From NCBI GenBank assembly GCA_013813715.1, contig JACCRF010000153.1:1-32552 (forward strand): a DNA stretch of 32,552 nucleotides, read 5' to 3'. Numbering within the stretch: the stretch's first letter is position 1; each line of letters starts with the position of its first letter. The DNA is from Gemmatimonadaceae bacterium (GTDB taxonomy: Bacteria; Gemmatimonadota; Gemmatimonadetes; Gemmatimonadales; Gemmatimonadaceae). The notes beneath the pieces are model-generated. The model ran no database searches. It was not told where the DNA came from and saw only the letters and a list, made by a program, of their open reading frames with translations. Positions 8,140-20,509 of this stretch are shown here, piece by piece. Position numbers and translations under genes: made by a program.

Positions 8140-8193
8140 GGAGGAAAGTTGCCGGGCGCGTAGTAGTGGGGCAAGCTAACTTTGACAACGCGA
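8140..8193. promoter_or_regulatory. Short divergent promoter region between ubiE and the sigma-factor gene
   Basis: These 54 bases must hold control signals for two divergent genes. A symmetric element is present: AAAGTTGCC (8145-8153) and GGC...AACTTT (8170-8183). I see no convincing -35/-10 pair, so the promoter call rests on gene orientation. Confidence 0.35.
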
Positions 8194-8802
8194 ATGACAC
8201 CATTGACCGCGCCGCCACCGATATCGAGCCTTCCGGATCCCGAAATCGTCGCCCTCGCGCGAAAGGGGTCGGAGAGTGCGTACCGCGAGCTGGTCGCGCG
8301 TTACGAGCGTCCCGTGTTCTCTCTTGTATTTCGCATGGTCCGTGATCGCGAGACCGCGGAAGATCTCTCGCAGGAGACCTTCATTAAGGTCCTCAACAAC
8401 CTCGACCGGTACAGCCCCGAATTCAAGTTCTCGAGCTGGCTGTTCAAGATCGCGAATAATCTCACCATCGATCATCTCCGCCGCCGGCGCGTGGATACGG
8501 TGAGCATCGAGGGCGCCCCCGATGCGGTTACATCGGAGAGCGCCAAGGCGACCTCGATCGCCGTCGTTTCCGGAAACGAATCGCCGCTCGAGGAGCTCGA
8601 GTCGCGCGAGCTGGGGACAGCGATCGAGGGCGCGATAGCCCGCCTCCGGCCCGAGTACAGGGCCTGCATCCTGCTCAGACACGTCGAGGACCGGTCTTAC
8701 GAGGAAATCGCCGAGATCGTCAAGCTGCCGCTCGGCACCGTCAAGACGTACATCCACCGGGCACGCCATGAGCTCAGGGCCGCTTTGGAGGACGTCCGGT
8801 GA
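8194..8802 (+). CDS. ECF-type RNA polymerase sigma factor (sigma-70 family, RpoE-like)
   Basis: This 202-residue protein directs RNA polymerase to a regulon of stress or envelope promoters. Region 2 covers roughly residues 28-98, with the core-binding DRETAEDLSQETFIKV and the -10-recognition segment FSSWLFKIANNLTIDHLRRR. Region 4 covers about 143-196, with the helix-turn-helix SYEEIAEIVKLPLGTVKTYI. I chose the ATG at 8194; an in-frame TTG at 8182 would add four residues. No clear ribosome binding site is visible. The next gene downstream encodes a membrane protein that may act as its regulator. Confidence 0.93.
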   Translation: MTPLTAPPPISSLPDPEIVALARKGSESAYRELVARYERPVFSLVFRMVRDRETAEDLSQETFIKVLNNLDRYSPEFKFSSWLFKIANNLTIDHLRRRRVDTVSIEGAPDAVTSESAKATSIAVVSGNESPLEELESRELGTAIEGAIARLRPEYRACILLRHVEDRSYEEIAEIVKLPLGTVKTYIHRARHELRAALEDVR

Positions 8803-8911
8803 CCGCCTTGAAACGCTGCCCCTCCGACCTCTGCGCCCCTGCTCAATTCTGCGTCTGGCATTTCTTGAAACCCGGCCTTTGGAGTCCCCGTAGTCCCACT
8901 GTGAGGACATT

Positions 8912-9466
8912 TTGAAAGACGACACCACACCCGAAGAATTCGAACCGATCGCGGCGGCCATGAAGCGGCTGCCGTATTTCGAGCCGTCTCCGCATTTCGC
9001 TGATCGGGTCATGGCGCGGGTCCATATCGCGCCGGGTGCGCAGATGCCGGTGATTGCGAAGGTGGCCCCGGCCTCATATCCCGCTCGCCGTCCGATCGTG
9101 GTACCCGAACGGGCCCAACCCGCTGCACCTCCGGCCCATTACTTCCCTCGCTCAATCCCCGCACGAATCGCAGCCGTCGCCCTCCTTGGCACGCTGAGCG
9201 TGGCGATGTCGCTCGTTGCCCTGATCTCGATGTTCCAGGTTGACCTGCTCGTCTTCGTTGCGCGCGTCTTCGGCGAGAACGCTATCGGCTTCCTCGCCGC
9301 CCTCGGAGCAGACGCTGCCGCAACGGCGACGACGACTGCCACCGGGTCGGTAGCCGCGGCAGGAACGATTACCGGAGCGGCAGTCATCGGCTCGTTCGCC
9401 CTCGGAGCCATTGCCGCTACCGCGGGACTGCGCGCGGCAGCTTCCGCAAGCCGCAGGGCGGCCTGA
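8912..9466 (+). CDS. Membrane protein, possible anti-sigma-like regulator
   Basis: This 184-residue protein is unrecognised at family level. It starts at a TTG with a GAGG ribosome binding site about six bases upstream. Residues 1-80 look cytosolic and include a FADRVMARV stretch of the sort seen at the end of short anti-sigma domains. Hydrophobic segments follow at about 83-108, 111-134 and 146-172, the last two very rich in Ala, Gly and Thr. It lies directly after an ECF sigma gene and overlaps the next gene by one base (TGATG). Location and topology make a sigma-regulator role plausible, but I see no zinc-binding HxxxCxxC motif. Confidence 0.6.
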   Translation: MKDDTTPEEFEPIAAAMKRLPYFEPSPHFADRVMARVHIAPGAQMPVIAKVAPASYPARRPIVVPERAQPAAPPAHYFPRSIPARIAAVALLGTLSVAMSLVALISMFQVDLLVFVARVFGENAIGFLAALGADAAATATTTATGSVAAAGTITGAAVIGSFALGAIAATAGLRAAASASRRAA

Positions 9467-10404
9467 TGATCCGACGTCTCCTCTGTGCCTCTGCGTCTCG
9501 GCAGCTTTCCTTATGGCTGCTCGTGGTCACTGCGGTGTTCGTCCCAAGCACGGTTCGCGCCCAGGACGGTCGGGTCGTTCGCCCAAACGTCACGACATCC
9601 GGCTCAGTGGTGGCTCTCAACGGCAATCTTGACGTTTATGGAACCGTTCGCGGCAACGCGACCGCGCTGAAGGGTGATGTTATCGTGCATCGGGGCGGGC
9701 GCGTGCAGGGCGATGCGATCTCGATTGCGGGACGCGTCCGAAACGAGGGCGGCGTCGTAGACGGGCGGATGAAGACGTACGGACGGCATGTGAAACACAT
9801 CCGCCGAACCCCGGCCCGCGTAATCCGTCACGATACCGGCCGCACCGTGGGACTAGCGCTCGGCTGGCTGCTGATGGTGTCGCTCATCGGCTTCGCGCTG
9901 CTGGCGTTCGGCCCCGAGAAGCTCAGTATCGTCGTCAACACGATGCAGGGCGGCATCGGCAAATCGCTCGGCAGCGGGCTCATCGGCCAGATCGCGATCG
10001 TTCCAGGAGCCGTCGCGGTCGTTGCACTGCTCGCGGCGAGTCTCGTCGGCATCCTCCTCATTCCGCTCGGCTTGATTGCCTTCATGTTTCTCGTTGCGGG
10101 GGTCGCGATGTTCGGCTTCGTGGCTGTCGCGACGATGACCGGCGCGGCGATCGGTGGTGGTAAAAACCGCGACGATACCCCGAATGGCGCAATGCTTCGC
10201 GCGTTTGTGACGGGGACCGGCGTCTTCCTTGGTCTGTGGGTCGTTACCGCCCTGCTCAGCGGCATTCCGCTGATTGGCGCAATAGTTCGCTCATTCGCTT
10301 CGGCGGTGACGTTCATCGCTGTTACGACCGGCTTCGGCGCGGTTCTGCTGTCCTACTGGCGGGGCGAGTTCAAGGCTGCGCGGCCGAAAGGGTCTGAAGT
10401 TTGA
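9466..10404 (+). CDS. Exported membrane protein with bactofilin-like repeat region
   Basis: The protein has 312 residues with a signal peptide (cleavage probably after VRA, residue 32). Residues 45-100 form short beta-type repeats (SGSVVALNGNLDVYGTVRGN and on), like the right-handed beta-helix of bactofilins and polymer-forming proteins. About four to five hydrophobic helices lie between 127 and 295. This gives an extracytoplasmic beta-helix tethered to a polytopic membrane domain. It overlaps the preceding gene by one base and so belongs to the sigma-factor operon. Its function is unknown. The first codons contain a repeat-like DNA segment. Confidence 0.7.
   Translation: MIRRLLCASASRQLSLWLLVVTAVFVPSTVRAQDGRVVRPNVTTSGSVVALNGNLDVYGTVRGNATALKGDVIVHRGGRVQGDAISIAGRVRNEGGVVDGRMKTYGRHVKHIRRTPARVIRHDTGRTVGLALGWLLMVSLIGFALLAFGPEKLSIVVNTMQGGIGKSLGSGLIGQIAIVPGAVAVVALLAASLVGILLIPLGLIAFMFLVAGVAMFGFVAVATMTGAAIGGGKNRDDTPNGAMLRAFVTGTGVFLGLWVVTALLSGIPLIGAIVRSFASAVTFIAVTTGFGAVLLSYWRGEFKAARPKGSEV
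9471..9505. repeat. Dispersed-repeat-like segment within signal-peptide codons
   Basis: The stretch includes CCTCTGTGCCTCTGCGTCTC. Its other-frame translations (PLCLCVSA on one strand, CRDAEAQRRR on the other) are the familiar signature of a short repeat found between genes in many bacterial genomes. Here it lies inside coding sequence. A weaker similar stretch (CCTCTGCGCCCCTGCTC) lies near 8830 between genes. Confidence 0.45.
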
Positions 10405-12566: not shown

Positions 12567-14021
12567 ATGAAATACCCTGAAGTCCGGAACTACCTCGCCG
12601 GCGATTTCGTTGCCGGCGATCACCGGTACCTGGACGTTTCCAATCCGGCCGATGGGTCGGTTATATCGCGAGTTCCGCTCTCATCACGCGACGACGTGGA
12701 CCGCGCGGTGGCGGTCGCCAGGAAAGCGTTCCCCGCCTGGTCCGCGCTGCCGATCAAGGAGAGGGTGCAGGTGTTCTATCGCTACCGCGCGCTCCTCGAA
12801 GAGAATATCGAAGAGCTGACCGCCCTCGTTACCGAAGAAAACGGCAAGGTCTACGCGGAGGCGAAAGCGGAGATCCTCAAGTCCATGGAGCTGACGGAGT
12901 TCGCTTGCTCCCTGCCGCAGATCACCGCCGGCGAAGTACTCGAGGTGAGCCGCGGAGTCGAGTGCCGAATCGAGCGCTTTCCCCTCGGCGTCGTCGCGTC
13001 GATTGCACCATTCAACTTTCCGAACATGGTTCCCAACTGGACCATTCCCAACGCCATTGCGCTCGGCAACTGCCTGATCCTCAAGCCGTCCGAGCTGGTT
13101 CCGATGAGCGCGAACCGCATTGCCGAGCTGCTTGCGGAGGCAGGGCTTCCTGAGGGCGTGTTCCAGGTAGTCCACGGCGGCAGGGACGTCGTCGAGGCGA
13201 TCTGCGACCACTCGGGGATCGAGGCGATCAGCTTCGTCGGCTCGACCAAGATCGCGAAGCTGGTGTACCGCCGCGGTTCCGCCAACCTGAAGCGCGTCCT
13301 CGCGCTGGGTGGCGCAAAAAACCACCTCATCGTCATGCCGGACGCCGATCCCGAGATGACCTCATCGAATGTGGTTGCGTCGATGTCGGGATGCGCGGGG
13401 CAACGGTGCATGGCGGCGTCGGTGATGGTCGCCGTCTCGAACACCGATCATATCATTCAGCGGATGATCGATCACGCAAAGACCGTCGTGCCCGGGGAAA
13501 ACCTCGGCCCGGTGATTTCCGCCGAAGCGAAGAAGAGGATCGAGCGCTACATCACGGAGGCAGAGGAAGCCGGCGCGAAAGTGCTCGTGGATGGCCGGAA
13601 CACGGTCGTTCCTGGCAAGGAGCGCGGGTTCTACATCGGGCCGACGATCATCGATCATGTCACTCCCGATATGCGCATCGCGCAGGAAGAGGTATTCGGG
13701 CCGGTGATCGTCATCATTCGCACCAGCGATCTTGATCAGGCGCTCGCCGTCGAGAACGCATCGCCGTATGGCAACGCGGCTTCGGTATTCACCGAGAGCG
13801 GCGCCACCGCGCGCTACGTAATGGAACGGGCGAGCGCGGGAATGGTCGGCGTCAACGTGGGAGTACCCGTGCCGCGTGAGCCATTCTCCTTCGGTGGATG
13901 GAACGAGTCGAGGTTCGGCGTTGGCGATATTACCGGCCGCGGCTCGATTGAGTTCTGGACACGCTCCAAGAAGATGACGACGAAATGGAACAGCGAGCAC
14001 GGCGTAAACTGGATGTCATGA
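12567..14021 (+). CDS. mmsA: CoA-acylating (methyl)malonate-semialdehyde dehydrogenase
   Basis: This 484-residue cytosolic aldehyde dehydrogenase converts malonate semialdehyde or methylmalonate semialdehyde, with NAD and CoA, to acetyl-CoA or propionyl-CoA plus CO2. The catalytic cysteine is C281 in GCAGQRCMAAS, and the oxyanion-hole N150 lies in PFNFPN. The usual general-base Glu of ALDHs is absent (LALGGAKNH), which is characteristic of the CoA-acylating MMSDH branch. A ribosome binding site (TAGGAG) precedes the ATG. It is the first gene of the pyrimidine island and would complete the pathway from beta-alanine or beta-aminoisobutyrate. Valine or inositol catabolism are alternative roles for the family. 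Confidence 0.93.
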   Translation: MKYPEVRNYLAGDFVAGDHRYLDVSNPADGSVISRVPLSSRDDVDRAVAVARKAFPAWSALPIKERVQVFYRYRALLEENIEELTALVTEENGKVYAEAKAEILKSMELTEFACSLPQITAGEVLEVSRGVECRIERFPLGVVASIAPFNFPNMVPNWTIPNAIALGNCLILKPSELVPMSANRIAELLAEAGLPEGVFQVVHGGRDVVEAICDHSGIEAISFVGSTKIAKLVYRRGSANLKRVLALGGAKNHLIVMPDADPEMTSSNVVASMSGCAGQRCMAASVMVAVSNTDHIIQRMIDHAKTVVPGENLGPVISAEAKKRIERYITEAEEAGAKVLVDGRNTVVPGKERGFYIGPTIIDHVTPDMRIAQEEVFGPVIVIIRTSDLDQALAVENASPYGNAASVFTESGATARYVMERASAGMVGVNVGVPVPREPFSFGGWNESRFGVGDITGRGSIEFWTRSKKMTTKWNSEHGVNWMS

Positions 14022-14038: not shown

Positions 14039-14115
14039 CGTGACTGGTGACTGGTGACGGGCAACGGGCCACGGGTGACGGATAACGAGTACCGGGTACC
14101 GGGTAACGGGTACCG
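14039..14115. repeat. Degenerate 7-bp tandem repeat, 11 units
   Basis: Eleven consecutive heptamers fit a GGTACCG/GGTAACG/GGTGACG pattern, running in perfect 7-base register from 14039 to 14115 between mmsA and preA. The units nearest preA are closest to GGTACCG. The array ends seven bases before the GGAGG of the preA ribosome binding site. A shorter version occurs at 27094-27121. Confidence 0.85.
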
Positions 14116-14129
14116 GAAATGGAGGTAGC

Positions 14130-15266
14130 ATGGCTGTAGACACCTCGGTCGAGTTCACGGGAATCCACTTCGAGAATCCCTTCCTGCTTTCGTCGGCCCC
14201 TCCGACCGAGTCGGAGAGCAACATCATGCGGGCGTTTGATGCGGGTTGGGGAGGGGTCGTGAGCAAGACGATCGGACTGCATCCCGTGGTAAACGTCTAC
14301 GGTGCGAAGGCGAAATTCATGCGCACGTCGGCCGACAATGCGCAGGTATCGATGAAGAAGCGCGACAACGCCGCGCTGCATTCCTCGTGGAACTGGGAGC
14401 TCATCTCCGACAAGCCGATCGACTGGTGGGAGCCGCGCATTCGCCGCATCAAGGAGGCGCACCCCGGGAAGGTGCTGATTGCGTCGATAATGGCGGGTTC
14501 CGGCAATGACAAGGAGCTCGGTAACTGGCAGCTTCTCGCAAAAGCCTGTCAGGAAGCCGGCGCGGACGGCCTCGAGCTCAACTTCTCATGTCCGCATATG
14601 GACCGTAAGGACATGGGTTCCAACATCGGGAAGGACAAGGTGCTCTGCTCAACGGTGACAGAAGCCGTGAAGGAGGTCGCCAATGTCCCGGTGTGGTGCA
14701 AGCTGACTCCGGCCACGGCGAACATCGTCGAGGAGGCGGGCGCGTGCTTTATCGGAGGCGCGGACGCGATTGTCTCATCGAACACGTTCCCGTCGCTGCC
14801 ACTGATCGACGCCGAAACGCTGGAGTTCGAGATCAACGTTGATGGCTACGTCTCGAGCGGCGGATTGGGGGGGCCCGCGATTCTGCCGATGGCGCTGGCC
14901 AAGATGGCGCAGCTCACGCAGGCATTCCCCGACAAGAGCTTTTCCGGAATCGGGGGGATCTCGGACATGTCGCAGGCGGTGAGCTATTTCGCCCTCGGGT
15001 GCGGAACGGCTCAGGTGTGTACGGCGGCGATGCTCGATCACGCCATCGGGCCCAACGTCATCAAGCGCCTCAATGAGCAGTACGCGGCTTTCCTGGAGAA
15101 GCACGGCTTCAAGTCGCTCGAGGATTTCCGCGGCGCGCGCCGCGATCGCGTCGTGCTCCAGTCGCAGATCCGCCGTCCGAGCACCTCCGACTATGCGGGC
15201 GGTTATGAGCCCGTCGAGGGTTATGCGGCACCGGCCGCGCACGAAGCGGCCCCGGTGACGCAGTAG
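14130..15266 (+). CDS. preA: PreA-like dihydropyrimidine dehydrogenase FMN domain, lacking the ferredoxin domain
   Basis: This 378-residue protein belongs to the PreA / dihydropyrimidine dehydrogenase TIM-barrel family, which reduces uracil or thymine using FMN. Family features are GWGGVVSKTIG (39-49), KVLIASIM (114-121), LELNFSCPHM (148-157), CKLTPATANI and the FMN phosphate-binding GIGGIS and GCGTAQVCTAAM stretches. The usual PreA carries two [4Fe-4S] clusters in a C-terminal ferredoxin domain that accept electrons from PreT. Here the last ~70 residues contain no CxxCxxC motif and end in an Ala/Pro-rich tail, so that domain is absent. A good GGAGG site precedes the ATG, and the next gene starts directly after its stop. 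No preT lies in the window. The substrate is inferred from context; a related dihydroorotate-type activity is an alternative. Confidence 0.88.
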   Translation: MAVDTSVEFTGIHFENPFLLSSAPPTESESNIMRAFDAGWGGVVSKTIGLHPVVNVYGAKAKFMRTSADNAQVSMKKRDNAALHSSWNWELISDKPIDWWEPRIRRIKEAHPGKVLIASIMAGSGNDKELGNWQLLAKACQEAGADGLELNFSCPHMDRKDMGSNIGKDKVLCSTVTEAVKEVANVPVWCKLTPATANIVEEAGACFIGGADAIVSSNTFPSLPLIDAETLEFEINVDGYVSSGGLGGPAILPMALAKMAQLTQAFPDKSFSGIGGISDMSQAVSYFALGCGTAQVCTAAMLDHAIGPNVIKRLNEQYAAFLEKHGFKSLEDFRGARRDRVVLQSQIRRPSTSDYAGGYEPVEGYAAPAAHEAAPVTQ

Positions 15267-16697
15267 ATGACCGCAACAATGCCCCCCGCCAGCGCGCAGG
15301 CTGCTCCGCAGTCCGCAGTTATCCCGCTGTCCGCAGTTAGTCCGCGGTCCGCATTGGTGCCGATGCCCCCCTGCGATCACGTCCCCCGCAAGTACCAGGG
15401 GCCGTCACGCGCGGAAGTCCTGGCGATGCGGAAACAGTACGCCAATCCCGCCGTCTTCACGCTGTACAAAGATCCTCTCATGCTCGTCGAAGGGCACATG
15501 CAGTGGCTGTTCGACGAGACCGGGCGCCGCTATCTGGACATGCTCGCAGGCATCGTCACGGTTTCCTGCGGCCATTGTCATCCGAGGGTAACGGCGAAAA
15601 TCCACGCGCAGGTTGACACGCTCCAGCACGCGACGACGATCTATCTGCACCCGGGGATGGCGGAGTTTGCGAAGAAGCTCGCGTCGAAGATGCCCGAAGG
15701 GCTCGACGTCACCTATTTCCTGAACAGCGGAAGCGAGGCGAATGACCTCGCCGTGCAGATGGCGCGGCTCTACACCGGGAACAGCGACGTGATCGCCCTT
15801 CGGAACTCCTACCACGGCGCGTCTCCCTCGGCCAACACGCTGACGTCGCACAGTACGTGGAAGTACGCTGTCAACGGCAGCGGCGGCGTTCATCACGCCA
15901 TCAATCCGGATCCTTATCGGAGTCCATTCTCCGGCACGCCCGAGGAGATTGCGTCTCAGAGCGCGGCCGACATCCGCGACCTAATCCGCTACTCCACTCC
16001 CGGCAAGGTCGCGGCGTTCATCGCCGAGCCAATTCAGGGTGTGGGGGGGACGACGCATGGTGCGCCGAACTACCTCAAGGAAGCCTACGCGATCGTCCGC
16101 GAGCATGGCGGACTCTGCATCGCCGATGAGGTGCAAACCGGATTCGGGAGGACCGGTGACCACTACTGGGGATTCCAGAACTGGGACGTCGTTCCGGACT
16201 TCGTCGTGATGGCGAAGGGCATTGGCAACGGCGTGCCCCTGGCCGCGGTGACGACGCGCATGGAGATCGCGCAACAGCTCACGCAGCGCGTGCACTTCAA
16301 CACGTTCGGCGGCAACCCGGTGTGCATGGCGGCGGGCATGGCGGTGCTCGACGTGATCGACGAGGATGGGCTTCAGGAGAACTCGCGCGTGGTGGGTGGG
16401 CGGCTCAAGGGCGGACTTCGAAAGCTGATGGATGAACACCCTCTTATCGGCGATGTTCGCGGCATGGGGTTGATGCTCGGTGTTGAGCTCGTTCGCGACC
16501 GCTCGAGCAAAGAGCCCGCGAAAGCGGAGACGCTTCAGGTGCTCGAGGAGGCACGCGCAATGGGCGTGCTCATCGGCAAGGGCGGGCTCGACGGCAACGT
16601 CATCCGCATCAAGCCGCCGATGTGCATCACCGCCGAGGACGCCGATTTCGCCCTCGATGTGATCCACCACGCATTGGCGGAGGCCGAAGCGCGGTGA
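15267..16697 (+). CDS. Class III aminotransferase, AGXT2-like (beta-alanine/beta-aminoisobutyrate)
   Basis: This PLP enzyme of 476 residues (444 from the internal ATG) probably moves the amino group of beta-alanine or beta-aminoisobutyrate to pyruvate or glyoxylate, giving the semialdehyde used by MmsA. The PLP lysine is K317 (VMAKGIGNG) and the cofactor-binding Asp is D287 (CIADEVQTGFGR). From PPCDHVPRKYQ onward it strongly resembles animal AGXT2 as I recall that sequence. The first 32 residues include a three-copy six-residue repeat and have no family counterpart. The ATG at 15363, just after that repeat, is a credible alternative start. The 15267 ATG directly abuts the preA stop. The 3' end overlaps the next gene (GTGA). 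Confidence 0.9.
   Translation: MTATMPPASAQAAPQSAVIPLSAVSPRSALVPMPPCDHVPRKYQGPSRAEVLAMRKQYANPAVFTLYKDPLMLVEGHMQWLFDETGRRYLDMLAGIVTVSCGHCHPRVTAKIHAQVDTLQHATTIYLHPGMAEFAKKLASKMPEGLDVTYFLNSGSEANDLAVQMARLYTGNSDVIALRNSYHGASPSANTLTSHSTWKYAVNGSGGVHHAINPDPYRSPFSGTPEEIASQSAADIRDLIRYSTPGKVAAFIAEPIQGVGGTTHGAPNYLKEAYAIVREHGGLCIADEVQTGFGRTGDHYWGFQNWDVVPDFVVMAKGIGNGVPLAAVTTRMEIAQQLTQRVHFNTFGGNPVCMAAGMAVLDVIDEDGLQENSRVVGGRLKGGLRKLMDEHPLIGDVRGMGLMLGVELVRDRSSKEPAKAETLQVLEEARAMGVLIGKGGLDGNVIRIKPPMCITAEDADFALDVIHHALAEAEAR
15309..15362 (+). repeat. Three 18-bp tandem units at the aminotransferase N-terminus
   Basis: Units at 15309-15326, 15327-15344 and 15345-15362 share a TCCGCA core and encode the six-residue repeats QSAVIP, LSAVSP and RSALVP. 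The array ends exactly one base before an in-frame ATG (15363). Confidence 0.8.
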
Positions 16698-18085
16698 GAT
16701 TCGACAAGATCGTTCGAGGCGGCAACGTTGTGACGCCGCGCGGTACCAGCGTCACCGACGTCGGTATCGTGGGTGAGAAAATCGCCGCAATCGGGCCTGA
16801 TCTCGACGGCTCGCCCGGCGCGCAGATCATCGACGCCAGCGGCCACCACGTAATTCCGGGTGTGCTCGACGTGCACGTCCACCTCGAGCTGCCCTTCTGC
16901 GGAACCGTCTCGTCGGACGACTACCGAACCGGAACTCGCGCAGGCGCCCGCGGCGGCGTTACGACGCTGATTGACTTCGCGATTCCGTACGCCAACGAAT
17001 CGCTGAGCCAGGCCGCCGATAACTGGATGGCCCGTGCCGAAGGGAAAGCGCTCATCGACTACACGTTTCACATCTGCATCACGCGGTACAACGAGCACAA
17101 GGATCAGATAAAGGGAATGGTCGACCGTGGCTTCACCACGTTCAAGGAGTTCATGATCTATGAGTCGGAGGGCTGGCAGTCAGACGACCGCGCGCTCTTC
17201 GGAACGCTGGAGAAAATGAACGAGTACGGTACGATGCTCCTTGTCCATGCCGAGTCGTCGCGCGTGCTCGACGAGCTGATCGAGCGCCATCACACACCGG
17301 CGCTGATGAAGGAGCACGGCGCGCGCCTGCATCGGATGACGCGCCCCAACTTCATCGAATCGGAGGCAGTGCAGCGTGTGGTGACCTGGTGCGAGGCCAC
17401 TGGTGGGCAGCTCTATATCGTCCACATGTCGACCGGAGAGGCCACGGACATCGTCAAGGCCGCGCAATCGCGTGGGGTGCCAGTCGTGGCCGAGACATGT
17501 GCGCAGTACCTGGTGCTGGATGACAGCGTGTTCGACCGCGAGGACGGCCACCTCTTCGCCTGCTGCCCGCAGCTCAAGAAGCCGAAGGATTCCGCGCGAC
17601 TGTGGGAGGGACTGAGGGACGGAGAAGTGTCGGTCATATCCACCGACACGTGCACGTTCACCCGAGAGCAGAAGGCGATGTGGGAGGGCGACTGGACGAA
17701 GATCCCGATGGGAATGCCGGGACTCGAGACGCTGTTGCCGCTGACGTACACGCACGGTGTGCTGAAAGACCGCATCTCGCTCGAGGACATGTGCATGAAG
17801 CTCAGCACGAACCCGGCGAAGATCATGGGGCTGTATCCGCGGAAGGGCGCAATCGAGGTGGGGAGCGACGCCGACCTCGCGATAATCCACCCGGACCGCG
17901 TGCATTGCGTCGACTGCGAGATCATGGAGACCAACGCCGACTGGTCGCCGTTTGAGGGATGGGACCTCGCGGGCTTTGCGCGCACGACCCTGTCGCGCGG
18001 AGACGTCATCGTGGATGACTACGCGGTGGTCGGGAAGGAAGGCCGGGGAAAGTGGCTGCCCCGGACGACGGCGGGACTACGATAG
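16694..18085 (+). CDS. hydA: Dihydropyrimidinase / D-hydantoinase
   Basis: This 463-residue cytosolic cyclic amidohydrolase opens dihydrouracil or dihydrothymine to N-carbamoyl-beta-amino acids. The binuclear metal site is complete: H61 and H63 in DVHVHLE, carboxylated K151 in TTFKEFMIYE, H185 in LLVHAES, H244 in YIVHMSTGEA and D318 in VISTDTCTFT; Y156 is the expected substrate-stabilising tyrosine. The length is typical. I chose the GTG at 16694, which overlaps the aminotransferase stop (GTGA) and puts RFDKIVRGG at the N-terminus as in the family. The open frame upstream covers the preceding gene. It acts between PreA and beta-ureidopropionase. Confidence 0.95.
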   Translation: MRFDKIVRGGNVVTPRGTSVTDVGIVGEKIAAIGPDLDGSPGAQIIDASGHHVIPGVLDVHVHLELPFCGTVSSDDYRTGTRAGARGGVTTLIDFAIPYANESLSQAADNWMARAEGKALIDYTFHICITRYNEHKDQIKGMVDRGFTTFKEFMIYESEGWQSDDRALFGTLEKMNEYGTMLLVHAESSRVLDELIERHHTPALMKEHGARLHRMTRPNFIESEAVQRVVTWCEATGGQLYIVHMSTGEATDIVKAAQSRGVPVVAETCAQYLVLDDSVFDREDGHLFACCPQLKKPKDSARLWEGLRDGEVSVISTDTCTFTREQKAMWEGDWTKIPMGMPGLETLLPLTYTHGVLKDRISLEDMCMKLSTNPAKIMGLYPRKGAIEVGSDADLAIIHPDRVHCVDCEIMETNADWSPFEGWDLAGFARTTLSRGDVIVDDYAVVGKEGRGKWLPRTTAGLR

Positions 18086-18129: not shown

Positions 18130-19623
18130 ATGCACACCATTGAAGAGCTTGACGCAGAGCTGTCGGACAGCCCCTTGTGGAATCCGGATCTCGCCCCGAC
18201 ACCTCTCTCGCGTCGCACGTGGTCGACCTACAACATCGCCGCGCTGTGGATCGGAATGGCGGTGGTCATCACTACCTACACGCTCGCGTCGGGGCTGATG
18301 CAGCAGGGGATGAACTGGTACCAGGCGCTGTTTACCATCCTCCTTGGCAACGTGATCGTGCTGGTGCCAATGGTCTTGAACGCGCACGCAGGCACCAAGT
18401 ACGGCATCTCGTTTCCGGTGCTCTGCCGCGCAAGTTTCGGAGTGAAGGGAGCGAACGTCGCGGCGATGCTTCGCGCTGTCGTCGCGTGCGGATGGTTCGG
18501 AATCCAGACATGGATCGGTGGCCTCGCTCTCGACGCGCTGCTCGGCGCTGCGTGGCCCGGATGGACGGAGATCGGGATCCATACCGGCATCGCTTTCATG
18601 ATTTTCTGGGCGATTCAGGTTTACATCATCCTCAAGGGGACGGAAGGCATCAAAGTGCTCGAGAGCTGGTCGGCTCCGCTGCTTCTTGGAGGGGGTCTCC
18701 TGCTGCTCTGGTGGGCGATCCGGAACGGTGGCGGACTCGGCGCCATTCTCGCCGGATCGTCTAGACTGCAGCAGGGCTCGACGCCGTTCTGGACACTCTT
18801 CCCCGCCGCGCTTACCGCTAATGTAGGCTATTGGGCGACGCTTTCTCTCAATATTCCCGACTTCACGAGATACGCGAAAAGCCAGCGCTCGCAGGCGATG
18901 GGCCAGGCACTTGGACTCCCCGGGGCGATGGTGCTCTTCGCGTTCATCGGGGTGGCGGTGACGAGCGCGACGATCGTGATATTCGGCAAGGCAATCTGGG
19001 ATCCGGTTGAGCTGATCACGCGAATCGGCTCGCCGGCGATCATTATCTTCGGCGCGCTCGTCATTCTTGCGGCGCAGCTCACGACCAACATGGCGGCAAA
19101 TGTTGTGTCGCCGGCCAACGATTTCTCGAACCTCAGCCCGCGCAGGATAACCTACGTAACCGGCGGTCTCATTACCGCGGTAATCGGAATTCTGATGATG
19201 CCGTGGAAGCTGTATTCTGACGCGGCGGCGTACATATTCACCTGGCTCATCGGCTACTCGAGCCTCATGGGCGCACTCGGCGGAATCCTCATCGCCGATT
19301 ACTGGATCGTAAAGCGGCAGCGCCTCGACCTCCGCGATCTATTTGCAGTCGAGGGACGCTACACCTACTCCAATGGCTTCAACTGGCGGGCGATAGCCGC
19401 ACTCGTGCTCGCGATCCTTCCGGTCGTGCCCGGTTTCATCACCGCCGCCACGACGCCTGGCGGTCAGGTCGCGAATCCCGACCTCTTCGACCGGCTGTAC
19501 ACGTACGCCTGGTTCGTCACGTTTGCGCTGAGCTTCGCGCTCTATCTTATTCTGATGCGGGGTACGGCACGCGACCACGAGCCCGAAAGCCCCGCGCGGA
19601 ACTACTCCATCACCGGAAGCTGA
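18130..19623 (+). CDS. NCS1-family nucleobase permease (uracil/hydantoin/allantoin type)
   Basis: This 497-residue inner-membrane transporter has about 12 hydrophobic helices and is likely driven by a cation gradient. Mhp1-like substrate-site features are present: W122 and Q126 in CGWFGIQTWIGG, W235 before LNIPDFTRYAK, and NMAANVVSPANDFSNL in helix 8. Given its place among uracil and thymine degradation genes, import of uracil, thymine or their dihydro forms is likely; hydantoin or allantoin are alternatives. I chose the ATG at 18130, where the family sequence starts. An upstream GTG at 18052 would overlap the dihydropyrimidinase gene. No ribosome binding site is evident. Confidence 0.92.
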   Translation: MHTIEELDAELSDSPLWNPDLAPTPLSRRTWSTYNIAALWIGMAVVITTYTLASGLMQQGMNWYQALFTILLGNVIVLVPMVLNAHAGTKYGISFPVLCRASFGVKGANVAAMLRAVVACGWFGIQTWIGGLALDALLGAAWPGWTEIGIHTGIAFMIFWAIQVYIILKGTEGIKVLESWSAPLLLGGGLLLLWWAIRNGGGLGAILAGSSRLQQGSTPFWTLFPAALTANVGYWATLSLNIPDFTRYAKSQRSQAMGQALGLPGAMVLFAFIGVAVTSATIVIFGKAIWDPVELITRIGSPAIIIFGALVILAAQLTTNMAANVVSPANDFSNLSPRRITYVTGGLITAVIGILMMPWKLYSDAAAYIFTWLIGYSSLMGALGGILIADYWIVKRQRLDLRDLFAVEGRYTYSNGFNWRAIAALVLAILPVVPGFITAATTPGGQVANPDLFDRLYTYAWFVTFALSFALYLILMRGTARDHEPESPARNYSITGS

Positions 19624-19639
19624 GACAGGAACCGACCGA

Positions 19640-20509
19640 ATGCCGAAAGTCGTGAAGTGCGGCCTCATCCAGGCCACACACGCGTGCGACACCAGCGAGC
19701 CCCTCGAGACGATCAGGGAAGCCAATATCGCCAAGCACGTGCCGCTGATCGAGCAGGCCGCGAGCGAGGGCGTGCAGATTCTCTGCATGCAGGAGATCTT
19801 CACCGGACCGTATTTCTGCGCCGAGCAGACGACACGCTGGTACGACTCCACCGAGCGGATTCCCGACGGGCCAACGACGAAGCTCATGCAGGAACTGGCG
19901 AAGCGGCACAACATGGTGATCGTCGTGCCGATTTACGAAGAGGAATCGCCCGGCGTGTACTACAACACCGCCGCCGTCATCGACGCCGACGGCACCTATT
20001 TGGGCAAGTATCGCAAGAACCACATTCCCCATGTTGCGCCGGGATTCTGGGAAAAGTTCTACTTCAAGCCGGGCAACCTCGGGTATCCCGTGTTCAAGAC
20101 GGCGTACGCCGACATCGGCGTCTACATCTGCTACGACAGGCACTTCCCCGAAGGGGCACGGGCGCTCGGGCTGAATGGCGCGGAGATCGTGTTCAACCCG
20201 TCGGCGACCGTCGCCGGGCTGTCGGAGTATCTATGGAAGCTCGAGCAGCCCGCCCACGCCGTGGCCAACGCGTATTTCGTCGGCGCCATCAATCGTGTGG
20301 GACGCGAGCAGCCCTGGGACATCGGCGAGTTCTACGGCCAGAGCTACTTCTGCGATCCGCGCGGTCAGTTTCTGGCAACCGCGAGCCGAGACAAGACCGA
20401 GTTGGTCACTGCCGAGCTCGATCTCGACAAGGTGCGCGAGGTGCGGAACGTCTGGCAGTTCTACCGTGATCGGCGGCCTGAGACGTACGACGAGCTCGTA
20501 GCGCTGTAA
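19640..20509 (+). CDS. Beta-ureidopropionase (N-carbamoyl-beta-alanine amidohydrolase)
   Basis: This 289-residue carbon-nitrogen hydrolase (nitrilase superfamily) splits N-carbamoyl-beta-alanine or N-carbamoyl-beta-aminoisobutyrate into the beta-amino acid, ammonia and CO2. The catalytic triad is visible as E52 (CMQEIFTGPYF), K126 (LGKYRKNHIPH) and C164 (VYICYDRHFPEGAR). Residues FNPSATVAGLSEYLWKLEQP follow the family pattern for carbamoyl substrates. The ATG at 19640 is preceded by an AGGA site. It is the last gene of the island. N-carbamoyl-putrescine amidase is a related alternative, made less likely by the neighbours. Confidence 0.93.
   Translation: MPKVVKCGLIQATHACDTSEPLETIREANIAKHVPLIEQAASEGVQILCMQEIFTGPYFCAEQTTRWYDSTERIPDGPTTKLMQELAKRHNMVIVVPIYEEESPGVYYNTAAVIDADGTYLGKYRKNHIPHVAPGFWEKFYFKPGNLGYPVFKTAYADIGVYICYDRHFPEGARALGLNGAEIVFNPSATVAGLSEYLWKLEQPAHAVANAYFVGAINRVGREQPWDIGEFYGQSYFCDPRGQFLATASRDKTELVTAELDLDKVREVRNVWQFYRDRRPETYDELVAL

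Follow-up and report, generated by a model that had tools for sequence, protein, structure and literature searches.

A short, ferredoxin-domain-less member of the dihydropyrimidine dehydrogenase family in a pyrimidine-degradation operon of Gemmatimonadota

In dihydropyrimidine dehydrogenases (DPDs), electrons normally pass from NAD(P)H to FAD, through four [4Fe-4S] clusters and finally to FMN, the last two clusters being located in a C-terminal ferredoxin domain. The human enzyme, in which electrons take this route via [4Fe-4S] clusters, decides 5-fluorouracil toxicity. To our knowledge all described DPDs keep Fe-S clusters, the FAD-less clostridial PydAc included. The C-terminal clusters of DPYD were described to pass electrons to FMN, and it was raised as an open question whether DPD requires the cluster chain or has kept it as a relic of module assembly (PMC8097209). 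Mammalian DPYD (1gth, 1h7w) is a single chain with an FAD/NADPH domain and four [4Fe-4S] clusters, whereas normal PreA, as in the E. coli PreTA enzyme (and bacterial PydA2), ends in a ferredoxin domain in which CxxCxxC occurs twice, and has PreT as its partner. PydAc of Clostridium chromiireducens, an enzyme of strict anaerobes, has no FAD/NAD(P)H unit and is encoded in a Pyd cluster without PreT-type partner, but it keeps both ferredoxin domains (theoretically four clusters; PMC7332683). Reduction of the uracil ring without Fe-S is performed by Dus, a related FMN barrel with a catalytic cysteine and a helical domain, which acts on tRNA and in which NADPH reduces FMN directly and FMN then reduces the uracil ring (PMC9176250). 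Class 1A dihydroorotate dehydrogenases (DHODHs) and fungal dihydrouracil oxidases (PMC9585004) are also single-domain FMN barrels without Fe-S and with dihydropyrimidine substrates, but in them the dihydropyrimidine is oxidised, with fumarate or O2 as acceptor. In a literature search, made mostly outside subscription papers, no description of a bacterial DPD lacking Fe-S clusters was found.

The window analysed here is a whole 32.5-kb contig (32,552 nucleotides) of a Gemmatimonadota MAG of 3.73 Mb (96.6% complete, 2.8% contaminated); the nearest named relatives are MAGs of Gemmatimonadaceae. It harbors six genes on one strand (Table 1), among them the gene of a short DPD-like protein, which starts 108 bp past the semialdehyde dehydrogenase gene and abuts the aminotransferase start. 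Together the six genes are a complete reductive uracil/thymine route, an assignment that follows the established knowledge of the Pyd pathway. An earlier note, made from the sequence alone, had claimed that the remaining genes of reductive pyrimidine breakdown are adjacent, and this was borne out by the profile matches and the common strand. In such a route uracil would first be converted to dihydrouracil by the short protein, after which dihydropyrimidinase, ureidopropionase, transaminase and the CoA-acylating semialdehyde dehydrogenase would act.

Table 1. Operon genes and features of the short protein in the window.
Feature	Position	Strand	Description
CoA-acylating (methyl)malonate-semialdehyde dehydrogenase	12567..14021	+	TIGR01722, 540 bits, over cut-off
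Short dihydropyrimidine dehydrogenase (DPD), putative	14130..15266	+	ATG start, 378 aa, FMN TIM barrel, no ferredoxin domain
Short-form-specific insertion, residues ~57-80	14298..14369	+	G-A/P-K-x-K-F-x-R-T...SMKK; many conserved basic residues; from alignment blocks
Predicted catalytic cysteine C154	14589..14591	+	Equivalent to pig DPYD C671, in active-site loop SCPHMDRKDMGS; from alignment
Conserved cysteine-free C-terminal tail	15129..15263	+	FRGxRRDRVVxQSxIRRP....YxGGYE..EGYAxP, where the two-cluster ferredoxin domain would be
Class-III aminotransferase, probable beta-alanine/3-aminoisobutyrate transaminase	15267..16697	+	PF00202; substrate from context
Dihydropyrimidinase	16694..18085	+	TIGR02033, 430 bits, over cut-off; start approximate, mechanical ORF opens 16622
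NCS1-family nucleobase permease	18130..19623	+	TIGR00800 over cut-off, PF02133; start approximate, mechanical ORF opens 18052
Carbon-nitrogen hydrolase, probable beta-ureidopropionase	19640..20509	+	PF00795; role from operon

To the profile search, the top curated family of the 378-aa protein was the PreA model NF006183 (293 bits). The match spans profile positions 3-328 of 422, the Fe-S part of the profile being unmatched, and the cut-off of 335 bits was not reached; with the same model E. coli PreA scored 688 bits and a normal Gemmatimonadota PreA 667 bits. DHODH/PyrD models gave 127-138 bits versus the 293 of PreA, and the DusB model only 21.6 bits (cut-off 293.3), which places the protein outside the Dus family, from which it is remote in sequence. 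Pig DPYD was the nearest solved structure by sequence (E 3e-42). A CxxCxxC motif was found nowhere in the protein, no reading frame with CxxCxxCxxxC was detected in 14900-16900 on either strand, and the sole string of this type in the window (20024, minus strand) falls into a stop-broken frame. Hence the earlier claim of a full PreA barrel without ferredoxin motif stands, the PreA-model match covering the barrel only. The motif is indeed absent from the last ~70 residues mentioned there, although this length was slightly generous, as the alignable known fold stops near residue 347 and only ~31 residues follow. A frameshift hiding a ferredoxin domain was not found: there is no downstream frame, and the short architecture and the tail are conserved in four phyla. 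In the predicted structure the tail has low pLDDT (about 42-61 past residue ~350); being conserved yet poorly predicted, it may become ordered upon binding something. A motif for NAD(P)H binding was not detected in the short protein.

In a maximum-likelihood tree (281 columns) the short forms were recovered as one clade (100%) and as sister to PreA (96%), with pig DPYD just outside the two and the DHODHs, class 1A sequences included, split off at 100%. The question whether the protein is a DHODH or belongs with PreA and DPYD is thereby answered in favor of the latter. The AlphaFold2 model showed a confident barrel (pTM 0.83), and its best structural match was the FMN domain of DPYD (Z 36.5, 301 residues, rmsd 2.4, 33% identity), while DHODHs reached Z values of about 31. 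The genome encodes a separate pyrD beside pyrF (L070 4015-4950, G000:C132), which is of class 1B (PyrDB) type. A DHODH identity was rejected by tree, model scores and this genuine pyrD, as the short protein neither groups with class 1 DHODHs nor has their model as its best. With PreA/PydA it shares the DPYD-type barrel residues, the uracil-contacting residues, the catalytic cysteine and, in Gemmatimonadota, the same pathway clusters; unlike them it has neither the C-terminal ferredoxin domain nor a PreT partner, and it scores below 335 bits with NF006183. It differs from PydAc, with which it shares the missing FAD/NAD(P)H unit, in that no ferredoxin domain is attached to the FMN domain. Judged from its sequence, the short protein is within the DPD family in the wide sense, having its position inside the DPYD and PreA clade, but it is not a PreA, because the two defining features of the latter, ferredoxin domain and PreT, were looked for and are missing.

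In 395 genomes of the phylum Gemmatimonadota, two separate sets of matches were obtained. Matches at 73-90% identity over the full length (short forms) were present in 32 genomes and matches at 36-43% identity, mostly in longer frames (normal PreA type), in 22. At the loci read, Gemmatimonadota short forms comprised about 372-394 aa (one was longer only through a mechanical start) and ended in the cysteine-free tail; the normal PreAs comprised 411-456 aa, the full-length ones read having 426-456 aa and two CxxCxxC each. Most normal loci have a PreT gene directly upstream of preA. At short loci the other pathway genes are present and the PreT gene is absent. A scan of 84,980 species genomes yielded 205 relatives, of which the best 80 were read; these belong to Gemmatimonadota, Acidobacteriota, Chloroflexota and Rhodothermales, plus one bin labelled Wallbacteria. 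All but one of these best 80 of 205 (79/80) are 369-401 aa long, lack the cluster motif and share one tail, while the remaining homologue, L075, gave no more than 20 aa in the frame that was read. The short form thus occurs in soil bacteria of at least four phyla. Gene order varies between phyla, and dihydropyrimidinase, ureidopropionase, permease or transaminase recur beside the short gene in many loci. The named short-form records among the matches listed are all MAGs, and viral contigs yielded no relative. In acidobacterial loci including L129 and L141, small genes resembling hydroxyisourate hydrolase and OHCU decarboxylase (urate breakdown) were seen by eye, which suggests joint purine/pyrimidine catabolic islands.

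Short form and normal PreA largely exclude each other. Among 692 sampled genomes of Gemmatimonadota and Acidobacteriota, 51 had the short form, 64 had a match of the 36-46% type, which was counted as normal PreA (in Acidobacteriota by identity alone), and none had both; chance would give ~4.5 (p 0.007, no relatedness correction). For Gemmatimonadota alone the numbers were 32, 22 and 0. The exclusion is not absolute, since one Chloroflexota genome with the short form (G439, locus L148) encodes a PreT-PreA pair as well: at a second locus (L156) a PreT gene lies beside a normal PreA gene, partly N-masked. The two types can therefore coexist outside Gemmatimonadota and Acidobacteriota.

Candidate electron partners were sought. 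The earlier note had reported no preT, and in the window as well as in the 96.6%-complete genome none was detected. A single protein of the PreT type (PF14691) is encoded in the genome, on contig C35. It is GltD-like, has 602 aa with additional ferredoxin motifs, and its gene is followed by two 2-oxoacid:ferredoxin oxidoreductase subunit genes (L069 1844-6500, G000:C35); given these neighbors it is not PreT. Such GltD-like and oxidoreductase genes are present in many, not all, short-form genomes. With a PreT query, orthologues (E 1e-79 to 1e-281) were found in nearly all normal-PreA genomes and in none of the 32 short-form Gemmatimonadota, in which the matches were at best GltD-like (about 34-40% identity, with E values of 1e-47 or weaker); 11 of the 32 gave no match at E 1e-10. 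No PreT was present in the fetched flanks of the best 80 of 205 loci, and 16 of 49 further short-form genomes of other phyla had no match at E 1e-20; GltD/PreT-like proteins occur in some Chloroflexota and Acidobacteriota short-form genomes. As the short protein has no clusters, no GltD-like partner could supply it with electrons by the known path.

PyrK was considered as a borrowed partner and discarded, as its domain (PF10418) exceeded the cut-off in 4 of 37 Gemmatimonadota genomes, none of them short-form. The PyrK Fe-S domain is missing from the own genome despite the PyrDB-type pyrD, and it stays under the cut-off in 33 of the 37. Around the short gene no recurring partner gene was recognised beyond the pathway genes in the loci of the best 80 of 205, a reading in which several small acidobacterial gene clusters remain without assigned identity. 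Plant-type FNR domains, the type covered by the FNR search, were absent from the own genome and from 23/32 short-form genomes. A census of donor genes was made in 27 short-form genomes (>=90% complete, <=5% contaminated), of which 11 were without 2-oxoacid:ferredoxin oxidoreductase and 21 without plant-type FNR domains. Nine (G127, G213, G142, G044, G091, G008, G228, G243 and G306) lacked both of these and also a GltD-like protein with E below 1e-20. The own genome encodes a stand-alone FdxA ferredoxin and a ferredoxin-type (KorAB-type) 2-oxoacid oxidoreductase. Of the earlier suggestion that the electron chain is encoded elsewhere, the parts concerning PreT and PyrK did not survive these searches, and a generic ferredoxin such as the FdxA present here is what is left of it.

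Since the clusters and PreT are both gone, the FMN would have to be reduced directly from outside. That the protein is a minimal DPD, whatever its electron donor, is probable, and tree and intact frame support the earlier proposal of an unrecognised minimal dihydropyrimidine dehydrogenase. The narrower reading, a minimal, Fe-S-free DPD whose FMN takes electrons directly, most likely from NAD(P)H, has in our estimation about an even chance of being right. We hypothesize NAD(P)H as direct donor by precedent, which is provided by Dus, and by elimination. Alternatively, the FMN of the same minimal DPD might be reduced by a diffusible carrier (a ferredoxin such as FdxA, or a flavodoxin) docking on the barrel, perhaps via the conserved basic insertion and the tail, whose conserved Arg/Lys could dock an acidic ferredoxin. 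We consider such a carrier possible but rather unlikely. PydAc does accept electrons from free ferredoxin (PMC7332683) and FdxA and the KorAB-type oxidoreductase are at hand in the own genome, but PydAc retains its own clusters for receiving the electrons, no ferredoxin gene was recognised as recurrent neighbor of the short gene in the loci of the best 80 of 205, and the nine well-complete genomes mentioned above have no POR/KOR, plant-type FNR or close GltD-like protein. Because of these gaps NAD(P)H is favored over ferredoxin, and genome content leans to it as donor.

The active site was compared with that of DPYD. All ten DPYD residues compared, K574, N609, E611, I613, N668, S670, C671 (C154 here), K709, N736 and T737, are identical in 56/56 short forms; from established DPYD knowledge we take them to be pyrimidine-binding, FMN-binding or the acid. 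The SCPHxM active-site loop with the catalytic cysteine is present and is one residue shorter than in DPYD, an invariant M-D-R stands for the G-M-G-E of DPYD, and W89 takes the position of DPYD I610. Uracil as substrate, the direction of the reaction and FMN binding are presumed here. If NAD(P)H is the donor, it would bind at the FMN face, donate its hydride and depart, and uracil would then bind (ping-pong), as proposed for Dus. Uracil would sit over FMN, held by the counterparts of the asparagine, glutamate and threonine residues that bind it in pig DPYD, C154 would protonate C5, and C6 would receive the hydride from FMN.

The altered loop and W89, together with the apparent purine-breakdown genes around some acidobacterial loci, would also fit a different substrate, i.e. 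another pyrimidine or a hydantoin-like ring feeding the same downstream enzymes. We regard this as improbable, as every listed pyrimidine-contacting residue of DPYD is conserved, and uracil and thymine suit dihydropyrimidinase, ureidopropionase and methylmalonate-semialdehyde dehydrogenase. In a reverse role the protein would take electrons from dihydrouracil, as an oxidase or a dehydrogenase, and hand them to oxygen or a different acceptor. This reading is modelled on fungal single-domain class-I DHODH-like proteins that lack Fe-S and are dihydrouracil oxidases; these are Ura1-like according to their authors (PMC9585004). Here the neighbors are dihydrouracil-consuming enzymes and a nucleobase permease, the short gene replaces PreT-PreA in otherwise equivalent clusters, and an oxidase would undo the pathway, which makes this role very improbable. 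That the gene is an artefact (by frameshift or misassembly), a decayed normal PreA (pseudogene) or a plain DHODH, to which the origin from one MAG and the NF006183 score under the cut-off might point, has a next to negligible chance, since the short architecture and tail common to the 79/80 (best 80 of 205) from four phyla exclude frameshift or MAG error, and strong conservation, tree position and separate pyrD argue against the rest.

The preferred reading, a widespread single-domain DPD in which NAD(P)H donates directly to FMN for the reduction of free uracil, without Fe-S, FAD or partner, is one that we hold to be right or wrong with similar probability. If true, the whole electron chain of DPYD would be dispensable for the reaction, and the protein would do with free bases, independently, what Dus does with tRNA. 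Direct reduction of the FMN would be the part surprising to a specialist. As a natural family with the uracil site and without the chain, the short forms make the question of chain necessity directly testable. They would offer a uracil reductase of small size that may tolerate oxygen well, and with them the pathway would become recognisable in Gemmatimonadota, Acidobacteriota and Chloroflexota of soil, the window's protein being under the current PreA-model cut-off.

Apart from the operon genes, further features of the DNA were observed. Degenerate tandem-like repeats (ACGGGTAACGGGTACCGG-type units of ~21 nt) lie at 14043-14112 between the dehydrogenase and the short DPD gene, and CCGCAGTCCGCAGT-type units, 18 nt apart, are found at 15305-15368 inside the start of the aminotransferase gene. 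Further upstream, the stretch 8182-10404 holds genes for a sigma-factor-like protein, a small membrane protein and a bactofilin-like protein; in close relatives (L033, L035) they lie next to the pyrimidine operon in conserved order with Mrp.
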